This document shows positions 7,171 through 58,924 of a DNA stretch of 64,000 nucleotides, piece after piece (the first letter of the stretch is position 1; each line of letters starts with the position of its first letter). Location: the NCBI RefSeq assembly GCF_900142885.1, contig NZ_FRCL01000005.1:124001-188000 (forward strand), in the 5' to 3' direction. The notes beneath the pieces were generated by a model, which saw only the letters and a program-made list of their open reading frames with translations, ran no database searches and was not told where the DNA came from. This DNA comes from Flavobacterium xinjiangense. Its GTDB lineage: Bacteria; Bacteroidota; Bacteroidia; Flavobacteriales; Flavobacteriaceae. The position numbers and the translations under genes are program-made.

Positions 7171-7655
7171 TTAGTTTATGCCTACTCTATTCGGTTTTCG
7201 GCTCCCCCTTTTTATTATTTTGCAGGAATACATTTTTATATCCTTTACAAGTATCTTGAAATTTTTTTTTGTTGAAATATGGTAGGTTGGCAATTGATAT
7301 GACTATTTAAAAGTACTTCAGATAGAAAGTCAACTAACAGCGTTATGCTATCTACGGAGTGCACAATGATTTTTATTGAGAACCATCAGCAATCATTTGA
7401 TTACAAAAGCCATTTTTCAGTAAATAGCTTGTTCCTCGCAAGCGGTTTTAAACAGTTCTTTTAATGTATTGGCACACACCTTCATAGTGACATCGGAAGT
7501 ATGCGAATGCTAGGAATATTGGTTTATATGCGCAATTTTTTGCAGTGTACGGTAATTTTGCAAGCTGAGGGCATTCCTTCGCATTTTAAATTAAGAAGGC
7601 GAGAGTGACTTGATAACGTGGGATAAATAAAACGAGTTTTGAATCACGAGCAATT
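7171..7655. other. Intergenic region containing a decayed archease gene
   Basis: 485 bases with no intact gene. The archease remnant at 7245-7509 (minus strand) fills most of it. The remaining 145 bases before the next gene show nothing I can identify. Confidence 0.6.
7245..7509 (-). pseudogene. Archease pseudogene (two frame-shifted remnants)
   Basis: Reading the minus strand, bases 7509-7417 encode H-S-H-T-S-D-V-T-M-K-V and T-L-K-E-L-F-K-T-A-C, the archease N-terminal signature (H-T-A/S-D-V...T-L-E-E-L-F). After a stop and about 31 bases, bases 7385-7245 in another frame encode I-V-H-S-V-D-S-I-T-L-L-V-D-F-L-S-E-V-L, the archease middle motif (LLvdfLsEvL), then run to a stop. The start and C-terminal portion are gone. 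Archeases activate the RtcB RNA ligase. Recognition is from motif memory, not from a search, but two collinear motifs in order make chance unlikely. Confidence 0.7.
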
Positions 7656-22716: not shown

Positions 22717-22847
22717 GTCAATTTTTTTGAAGCTACAAAGATACTTATAAATTTTTTTGCCACGAAGTCGCATAGGCGCAAAGTTTGTTAAGTTTCAATT
22801 TGATTTTTTATTTGGAATTCGAATGTTTAATTTTGCCATAAAATTCT

Positions 22848-22950
22848 AGCCCTGATAGTCCCGAAGTTTCGGGAAAAATCCGTTTCTGTTTTTCCTTTAA
22901 GACAGAAAAGATTGCGACGTATAGCAAGAAACGAGCAAAACGAACTGTCG
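22848..22950. repeat. Structured intergenic element, copy B (ATCC-hairpin-AGAT type)
   Basis: Contains a CCCGAA/TTCGGG hairpin (22860-22873), then ATCC, a TTTCTGT/ACAGAAA stem (22883-22889 with 22902-22908) and AGAT, followed by G-C-rich AGC repeats. The same order is found, on the opposite strand, at 58801-58924. From memory this layout recurs between genes in many Bacteroidota genomes; I know no accepted name. Confidence 0.5.
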
Positions 22951-22963
22951 AAGTAAATAGTTT

Positions 22964-22988
22964 CAAATTGCTTCGTGCCTCGCAATGA
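22964..22988 (-). repeat. TCATTGCGAGG-type interspersed repeat segment
   Basis: The minus strand reads TCATTGCGAGGCACGAAGCA and on to the next six bases. This motif is common as an interspersed palindromic repeat in bacterial intergenic DNA. It abuts the phosphodiesterase start by 9 bases, so it may overlap its promoter or leader. Confidence 0.5.
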
Positions 22989-22997
22989 TACCTAAAT

Positions 22998-23495
22998 ATG
23001 AAAAAAATTCTACTACTTTCCGATACGCATAGTTATATTGACGATACAATTTTAAAATATGTTGCCCAAGCTGACGAAGTTTGGCATGCAGGAGATATTG
23101 GCGATTTGGCTGTGACTGATGCGATAAAAAAACTAAAGCCGTTGCGATGTGTTTATGGTAACATTGATGACGCCAAAGCAAGATTGGAATTTCCGTTGCA
23201 CAACCGTTTTATGTGCGAAGGAGTGGATGTGTGGATTACCCATATTGGCGGTTATCCGGGGAAATACAATTCAAATATTAAAGCGGAGATTGTTGCAAAT
23301 CCTCCAAAATTATTTATTTGCGGACATTCGCATATTCTGAAAGTAATGTTCGATAAAAAACACAATCTGTTGCACATGAATCCAGGAGCAGCAGGAAAAA
23401 GTGGTTTTCATCAAGTGCGTACCATGTTGCGTTTTGTGATTGAAGGCGATAAAATAAAAGATTTGGAGATTATTGAAATCGAAAAAAAGCCGTAA
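22998..23495 (+). CDS. YfcE/MJ0936-type metallophosphoesterase
   Basis: A 165-residue calcineurin-like phosphoesterase of the small one-domain type. All metal motifs are visible: D-T-H at 9-11, G-D-I-G-D, G-N-I-D-D, T-H-I-G-G, G-H-S-H and N-P-G-A. Members hydrolyse phosphodiesters; the natural substrate is usually unknown. It is divergent from truA and convergent with the histidine kinase gene, only 6 bases apart. Confidence 0.92.
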   Translation: MKKILLLSDTHSYIDDTILKYVAQADEVWHAGDIGDLAVTDAIKKLKPLRCVYGNIDDAKARLEFPLHNRFMCEGVDVWITHIGGYPGKYNSNIKAEIVANPPKLFICGHSHILKVMFDKKHNLLHMNPGAAGKSGFHQVRTMLRFVIEGDKIKDLEIIEIEKKP

Positions 23496-40754: not shown

Positions 40755-40830
40755 GGAACGGATTCAAATTGTTTGAATTAGGCGATAGAAATTTATTTTT
40801 AAATTGGGTTACGCGAGTTCGAGTAATATA

Positions 40831-40868
40831 AAAAAAAGCGATTTTCATTATGAAAATCGCTTTTTTTT
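40831..40868. terminator. Bidirectional terminator between MazG-like gene and ilvE
   Basis: AGCGATTTTCAT pairs with ATGAAAATCGCT with flanking A and T runs. Confidence 0.9.
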
Positions 40869-40886
40869 ATACTTGAAATCTAAAGT

Positions 40887-58800: not shown

Positions 58801-58924
58801 GGGCGCGTCCCTCCATTTTGCTTCGTCGTTCCTCCTCGCAACTCCTGGTCGGGCTGTTCGTTGTATCTTTTATTCCGCAGGTTTCATAAAAGGATGTCAC
58901 TTCCATCCCTCGCGCAAAACCTGC
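58801..58924. ncRNA. Structured intergenic element, copy A (possible ncRNA or repeat)
   Basis: GC-richer than its surroundings, without a coding frame. Paired segments: GCGCG (58803-58807) with CGCGC (58911-58915); TTTTAT (58868-58873) with ATAAAA (58886-58891); and GCAGGTTT (58877-58884) with AAACCTGC (58917-58924), the last crossing the others. Read on the minus strand it gives ATCC-hairpin-AGAT-ACAACG-ACAGC, as in copy B at 22848-22950. Class uncertain: an interspersed repeat is as likely as an RNA. Confidence 0.45.

Follow-up and report, generated by a model that had tools for sequence, protein, structure and literature searches.

Dispersed copies of the Flavo-1 motif in Flavobacterium keep paired arms and carry tips that appear to be exchanged

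The Flavo-1 RNA motif (RF01705) was catalogued in 2010 from comparative genomics without a function (Weinberg et al. 2010, PMC2864571), and a review ranks it among its most abundant small-RNA families (PMC9029176). Its name or accession also occurs in PMC3765529 and PMC7682815. In the passages retrieved by name and accession, no function is described, as the preliminary description of this locus had supposed (PMC2864571, PMC9723704, PMC9029176). The family itself is already known, and those passages contain no description of it as a dispersed repeat or of exchange of its tips. Rfam models Flavo-1 as an sRNA gene of 76 positions. The copies described here have the same arms, the same helix and the same residence in the Bacteroidetes, but one form (type B) adds a variable paired outer stem, and the family acts as a dispersed repeat with an exchangeable apex.

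Integron attC sites are folded as single-stranded DNA (ssDNA) on one particular strand and combine a conserved irregular stem with a highly variable terminal structure. These features are like those proposed for Flavo-1, which differs in having copies dispersed through the chromosome. REPs and REPINs of RAYT type are also short, intergenic and present in many copies, with a TAG foot on the 5' side of an irregular hairpin that is specific to one strand (PMC3733652, PMC8266576); the foot of RAYT REPs is GTAG, their recognition is strand-specific, and those of E. coli have a stem irregularity (PMC8266576). Flavo-1 differs from these in lacking GTAG, in its larger helix and in having no linked or co-occurring RAYT gene at the loci and in the genomes tested. 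REPs of the CGTC type are likewise dispersed palindromes, reported in Bacteroidetes, without a dedicated transposase, but have stems of 8–9 bp, loops of 4–5 nt and a CGTC foot (PMC3733652); the Flavo-1 helix is longer and irregular, and its foot is TAGC or GCGTGA. Two Flavobacterium species are included in a table of REP counts from a paper with no match to the search by Flavo-1 name and accession (PMC12306157).

Two copies in the analysed window

The window is a stretch of 64,000 nucleotides from Flavobacterium xinjiangense (contig NZ_FRCL01000005.1, positions 124,001 to 188,000, forward strand). The preliminary description reported one layout in two segments on opposite strands, and this is confirmed on both strands. 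Positions 22848-22950 (+) read AAAATCC, GTTTCTGT...ACAGAAA, AGAT and an AGC-containing tract; positions 58924-58801 (-) read ACATCC, TTTTAT...ATAAAA, AGAT and then ACAGCCCG. With the RF01705 gathering score of 42 bits as the threshold of membership, copy 2 is a Flavo-1 member by score (E 1.6e-7 in Rfam), and copy 1 falls under the cut-off (E 0.025). In copy 1, the left arm is interrupted by a short palindrome of foreign origin, TCCCGAAGTTTCGGGA, and the right arm has AGCAAG in place of the usual AGCNGG. In five relatives scanned at this site, G007 and G032 each score 79.8 bits, and nothing above the cut-off is present in G048, G113 and G120. Because the same site scores this highly in two relatives, copy 1 is read as a probably decayed Flavo-1 copy, with its membership resting on orthology.

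Table 1. Features of the two Flavo-1 copies in the window
Feature	Position	Strand	Evidence
Putative -7 promoter-like box, TAATTTTG	22828..22835	+	sequence; similar boxes in relatives by eye
Flavo-1 copy 1 core, TAGCCC-foot type, left arm degenerate with an extra small palindrome	22844..22935	+	Rfam, 30.1 bits; orthologous sites
Copy 1 3' extension, long form of the second-helix region, ...ACGAGCAAAACGAACTGTCGAAGTAAATAGTTTC	22936..22964	+	layout as in long-form copy C17:220483
Calcineurin-like phosphoesterase gene, downstream of copy 1	22998..23495	+	PF12850, E 4.3e-28
Copy 2 outer stem, 3' half, ACGCGC	58803..58808	-	sequence; type B comparison
Copy 2 second-helix region with small REP-like palindrome	58809..58842	-	sequence
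Flavo-1 copy 2 core, type B, GCGCGAGGGAT foot	58843..58920	-	Rfam, 48.9 bits
Copy 2 outer stem, 5' half, GCGCGA, unpaired in the Rfam model	58910..58915	-	pairs with 58803-58808

Copy 1 lies between a tRNA pseudouridine synthase gene (truA; PF01416) and the phosphoesterase gene. The box ahead of it fits TAnnTTTG, which we take to be the Bacteroidota -7 consensus. Since no -33 box at proper spacing is seen in the sequence before it, the promoter is putative; if used, it would make copy 1 the first part of the mRNA that covers the gene at 22998. In copy 2, the outer stem halves form 5 bp, and the sixth position is an unpaired A-A. The limits first given for this segment, 58801-58924, correspond to the full copy including the outer stem, which extends beyond the reach of the Rfam model.

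Small REP-like palindromes accompany both copies, ATTGCTTCGTGCCTCGCAATGA at 22967-22988 (+) beside copy 1 and GCTTCGTCGTTCCTCCTCGCAA at 58820-58841 inside copy 2, and palindromes of this type serve as the apex in a few Flavo-1 copies. Elsewhere in the window, a DUF805b RNA match at 7179-7211 (-) scores 35.5 bits against a cut-off of 35.6, and a long, AT-rich, near-perfect intergenic hairpin at 40816-40879 gives weak matches to microRNA families.

Distribution, anatomy and pairing of the family

The 3.9-Mb F. xinjiangense genome contains at least 105 matches to RF01705 at E<=10 and at least 87 above the cut-off; the latter are taken as the firm ones because 10 of 14 control genomes also have a match at E<=10, and none of the 14 has one above the cut-off. 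Whole-genome searches scored up to 150 candidates per genome (15 in the survey of 296 genomes), and all such counts are lower bounds. Flank analyses used the 96 F. xinjiangense matches with E<=0.022 and left out the 9 weaker ones. All 13 genomes of the genus sample, F. xinjiangense included, are positive, with from at least 3 to at least 94 matches each at E<=1e-5, a threshold at which the 14 control genomes give none. At E<=1e-7, Flavo-1 is found in 35 of 296 genomes of the phylum sample, again with F. xinjiangense included, and in 15 of 139 genera. A left-arm pattern matches at least 120 stretches in named genomes; among the 80 listed, 79 are from Bacteroidota, mostly Flavobacterium, Chryseobacterium and relatives, and the other is a Nitrotoga MAG contig. 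The element occurs across Bacteroidota, as the preliminary description stated. Carriage by phages was considered and rejected, as viral contigs scanned with three exact patterns yielded 0, 0 and 1 match. The sole viral match, at 8472-8496 of contig L380, is a Flavo-1-like type B left arm.

With genes taken as the longest open frames rather than from a gene finder, 88 of the 92 F. xinjiangense copies of at least 30 bits are intergenic, 3 lie within an open frame and 1 is incomplete. Relative to their neighbours, the intergenic copies are oriented -E- (antisense to both) in 38 cases, +E+ in 22, -E+ in 19 and +E- in 9. Between genes in tandem, antisense copies are only weakly preferred (38 to 22, p 0.052), and the upstream neighbour is directed away in 57 of the 88 (p 0.007).

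The anatomy was drawn from the 96 F. xinjiangense copies with flanks and from 243 distinct copies. A TAGC foot stands 5' of helix I in 124 of 126 copies that were not fetched by a TAGC-containing pattern; the TAGCCC form is the common type. Helix I has the form CCxGATz GnAGY GnA AATCC [apex] GAT TGnARC GnA z'AGCyGG, in which two pairs separate two 3x3 internal loops, each with GNA in both strands, and which includes one A-G mismatch; a second arm subtype, GCATCC/GATA, is common. On the 3' side, GGA is followed by a region that is either short or 30-32 nt long and then by CTCC or a variant of it. An outer stem, GCGTGA/TCACGC, characterises type B copies, to which the 58.8-kb copy belongs; its closing motif was found in 35 of 39. 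Among these 35, pair 1 is G-C in 26, A-T in 6 and other in 3, pair 2 is T-A in 33, C-G in 1 and other in 1, pair 3 is G-C in 22, T-A in 8, A-T in 4 and other in 1, and pair 4 is A-T in only 21; the closing motif was the best-pairing one in the stretch, a choice that biases these counts toward pairing.

Some copies carry a module of ~47 nt (TTACTTCAC...GGAGTTCAGTGAATTTCATTTG) that interrupts one or the other arm of helix I at GATT/G (C32:49182, C16:173127 and C31:15325 in F. xinjiangense, and sites 14 and 25 of the G033/G097 comparison below), and looks like a second small element nested within Flavo-1. Head-to-head pairs of Flavo-1, ~100-170 nt apart, occur at C16:44433(-)/44631(+) in F. xinjiangense and at C1:495491(-)/495736(+) in G039; the two pairs are possibly orthologous.

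Pairing is kept in the arms while the bases vary. The x-y pair of 243 copies is T-A in 115, C-G in 89, A-T in 22, G-C in 10, T-G in 6 and C-A in 1, so that 236 are Watson-Crick pairs against 39% expected from composition. In the 237 copies that could be parsed, z-z' is Watson-Crick in 234, G-T in 0, A-C in 2 and other in 1, and Y-R is Watson-Crick in 218, G-T in 12, A-C in 2 and other in 5. In a 12-row alignment of F. xinjiangense copies, picked by a strict pattern (12 of 17 matching) that favours conserved arms, 99% of the cells of eight named pairs are paired against 82% after shuffling, and the covariation score of 0.555, reached by 0 of 500 shuffles, compares with 0.186 for shuffled rows and a maximum of 0.093 for slid ones. 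Counter-cases are found at three sites shared by G033 and G097, where x-y is broken in G097 (site 11, G-G; sites 17 and 23, C-A). True covariation sits in the outer arms (x-y, z-z' and Y-R) and in the type B outer stem. The preliminary description had proposed a structured element with pairing preserved, to be abandoned if further copies were lacking or their stems did not covary; the 87 copies above the cut-off and the covariation of the outer arms bear it out. If Flavo-1 is a DNA-level repeat, such covariation alone is no proof of RNA.

Tips and presence at orthologous sites

Genomes G033 and G097 provide a comparison of the same sites in two species. From 105 copies with flanks, 47 have any flank match, and 25 distinct sites are orthologous by both flanks, with identities of 81-95% on the left and 81-96% on the right; matches of a single flank or with discordant flanks were dropped. 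Flavo-1 is present in both species at 19 of the 25 sites, a proportion in which shared sites are over-represented by the choice of stretches around copies of both genomes, and is absent or truncated in one species at 6 (sites 7, 10, 12, 19, 22 and 24). By eye, 10 of the 19 shared sites have apices of different families in the two species (5, 6, 8, 11, 14, 16, 17, 18, 20 and 21), with flanks and outer arms kept, and 9 have the same or nearly the same apex (1, 2, 3, 4, 9, 13, 15, 23 and 25). At site 8 the apex is the sole difference, between flanks that are 94% and 93% identical. At sites 1, 6 and 21 the arm subtype switches on both sides together, and at sites 14 and 25 the ~47-nt module is present in one species only.

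Of 106 tips of the two species, 68 fall into 9 clusters, 8 of which hold both species, although one of the 8 consists solely of the two orthologous tips of site 9 and clustering comes readily to T-rich tips. A single tip palindrome is repeated at 4 positions of the genome, each within a Flavo-1 match, one of which (C24:112736) reaches only 17.2 bits. Other repeats of the genome were considered as the origin of tips and mostly rejected, as a match outside the copies (at least 14 nt with at least 5 G/C) was found for 4 of 47 F. xinjiangense tips and for 0 of 47 shuffled tips in 342,019 bases searched. The tip finder recovers part of the copies (45 distinct F. xinjiangense tips for 87 copies above the cut-off). 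On these comparisons, tip change appears to be replacement by recombination or copying, outpacing point change. The preliminary description had treated TTTCTGT/ACAGAAA and TTTTAT/ATAAAA in the two window segments as covarying stems. They are apices of different families, and because apices are replaced wholesale at 10 of 19 orthologous sites, their difference is probably mostly tip replacement; covariation does hold in the outer arms and type B outer stem.

The six sites at which the species differ show the presence/absence expected of a MITE or mobile element, and may reflect either gain or loss; the empty sites are too divergent in sequence for a target-site duplication to be read. At site 1, the upstream gene ends with the TAG of the element as its stop codon in G113, G007, G033 and G097, and in F. 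xinjiangense, G032, G048 and G120 the element is absent and the frame ends at another stop. This would fit insertion at the gene end, and later loss in the other genomes could also explain it.

The site of copy 1 offers a longer view. The intergenic region between truA and the phosphoesterase gene was read in 24 of 30 loci, including that of F. xinjiangense, the two genes being apart in the other 6. By eye, Flavo-1 is present in 15 of the 24, again including F. xinjiangense, behind a similar -7-like box, and these 15 copies differ in their apices, their x-y pairs or an extra module. The remaining loci are a remnant in G120, a deletion in G002 and 7 with unrelated intergenic DNA. Persistence at one site in many species could hint at a host function, and counts against the mobile-repeat reading that we prefer.

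The folded strand and competing explanations

Mispairs in the tip stems indicate which strand folds. Among 214 distinct tips, G-T exceeds A-C by 46 to 5, or by 37 to 5 when distinct contexts are counted (one-sided binomial, 2e-7). Strand-symmetric mutation predicts equal numbers of the two, and therefore one particular strand appears to fold. The excess is 31 to 3 (101 tips) at loci retrieved with a left-arm DNA pattern, all outside the tip bases fixed by the pattern, and 16 to 2 (114 tips) at the remaining loci. By orientation, in classes that are small, it is 6 to 0 for -E- (31 tips), 3 to 0 for -E+ (15 tips), 1 to 1 for +E+ (17 tips) and 0 to 0 for +E- (5 tips). Terminator hairpins, a weak positive control in which chance hairpins are included, give 139 G-T to 89 A-C in 884 hairpins. 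The z-z' pair has no G-T bias, which counts against the reading favoured here.

Whether the folded strand is RNA or ssDNA is less clear-cut. Sense TAnnTTTG boxes within 250 nt upstream of 96 copies are at background level, with 2 full -33/-7 matches and with this promoter class being the only detectable one; outward-pointing boxes are enriched 25-100 nt from the 5' end of the element. This lack of sense promoters and the wobble bias by orientation, which is present in -E- and -E+ copies, argue that read-through RNA is not the form under selection. Two further features are DNA-like. The tip loops (142 of the 214 tips) contain 467 T to 74 A, and terminator-like hairpins of the same genomes contain 1666 T to 1760 A. 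Among 8 plus-strand F. xinjiangense copies, helix I is best in 6 with RNA parameters, and its outer part is best in all 8 with DNA parameters. Neither window copy, folded alone, has the consensus helix as its best structure with RNA or DNA parameters. Compared with shuffles, the z values of the two are -1.89 and -2.65 as RNA and -2.30 and -0.47 as DNA; one copy thus beats its shuffles as RNA and not as DNA, a result that speaks against ssDNA. G-U tolerance is equally expected from RNA and also counts against the ssDNA reading. Finally, elements folding as lagging-strand ssDNA would be predicted to switch strand between chromosome halves, and the lack of such a switch in the single-contig genomes G010, G048 and G039 (150 of 220 matches listed) counts against ssDNA. 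On the single contig of G048 (C1), the listed copies are 40 plus to 16 minus over its whole length, without a switch. We lean toward a folded single strand, with ssDNA likelier than RNA, on sequence data that accommodate both.

In line with its Rfam type (Gene; sRNA), Flavo-1 could be a functional RNA, made by read-through or from its own promoters and bound by a protein in cis or trans. The one-strand wobble is what G-U pairing predicts, the pair of 3x3 internal loops with their GNA motifs suits an RNA, and copy 1 occupies a gene's 5' leader directly after a -7-like box, where the element recurs in relatives. Data on F. psychrophilum point both ways: several Flavo-1 matches coincide with 5' transcribed regions, and the matches are indistinctly sense or antisense of transcribed regions, with many in none (PMC9723704). 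The missing sense promoter signal of the TAnnTTTG class, the 38 of 88 intergenic copies that are antisense to both neighbours and retain the wobble bias, and the T-rich tip loops weigh against it; the same promoter result, for that class, speaks against an independent sRNA gene. We regard an RNA function as possible but doubtful. A structure that serves the host as DNA, for example a non-mobile cruciform or hairpin to which a nucleoid protein, gyrase or a domain-boundary factor binds close to promoters and the ends of genes, would account for long retention at one site across many species, for the boxes of the upstream divergent gene 25-100 nt away and for the near absence from viral contigs. 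It sits poorly with the variation in copy number within one genus and restriction to 35 of 296 phylum genomes, or with the presence differences between G033 and G097, and a cruciform alone offers no explanation for a wobble bias that needs one strand. We consider such a structure improbable.

Movement by the Y1 transposases of these genomes, as REPs of RAYT (TnpA_REP) type, was raised by the TAG foot and by both F. xinjiangense PF01797 genes (one below the Pfam cut-off), each of which has a Flavo-1 copy ~1 kb downstream, one gene on; the CCxGAT stem with its A-G irregularity and the strand-specific fold also favour it. However, G precedes TAG in 1 of 124 copies, the base otherwise being C, T or A, and the foot is therefore not GTAG. 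At other PF01797 loci, Flavo-1 is above the cut-off at 1 of the 20 tested (of 24), near the expectation from copy density of about 0.9 by our arithmetic, with one look-alike by eye at locus L114. Most PF01797 loci are flanked by other palindromes (22 by eye, the gene frame having been misread in L114 and L115), and numbers of Flavo-1 copies and PF01797 matches are discordant (94 and 0 in G004, 40 and 0 in G011, 11 and 0 in G012, 3 and 2 in G002). RAYT identity is largely refuted here and is now very unlikely. Comparison of PF01797 and Flavo-1 counts found no transposase that tracks the element, which also counts against the mobile repeat that we prefer. The Y1 genes themselves are bracketed by paired palindromes of several families, e.g. 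GCTAGCGCGAGC...GCTCGTGCCC, at L031, L113, L118, L120, L122-L124 and L126-L129. The look-alike, 3' of the Y1 match in L114, is a type B form by eye, GCGTGAGGGACAGCAGCGG...GGATGGCCCGGCC, below the Rfam gathering score.

High copy number, intergenic location in both orientations, presence/absence, covariation of the arms, strand-specific wobble and replacement of the apex together lead us to read Flavo-1 as a REP/MITE-like dispersed chromosomal repeat, foldable on one strand and with a swappable tip; we are about evenly divided over whether this is correct. Such an element would enter intergenic DNA, could persist there for long periods and would stay foldable on one strand. The folded strand may be ssDNA exposed at replication or recombination and recognised by a protein, and short-tract recombination (gene conversion) may exchange the apex, using the ~20-30 nt of constant arm that copies have in common on each side. 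A bolder proposal, which we hold to be rather unlikely, is that Flavo-1 forms a class of its own among repeats that fold as a single strand, with an apex resembling a cassette, in which the constant arms, two-fold symmetric with GNA-RY-GNA on both strands, are recognised as ssDNA by an enzyme that both moves copies and overwrites apices, leaving a limited set of tip families among ~100 sites per genome.

Should Flavo-1 be a repeat at the DNA level, each flavobacterial genome of this kind receives scores of questionable sRNA genes from annotation pipelines. The replacement of apices at orthologous sites turns a question that dates from 2010 into a test of strand, transcript and binding protein. 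It also provides a process that can be measured, a short-tract exchange among dispersed hairpins, and laboratory lineages would allow it to be followed.
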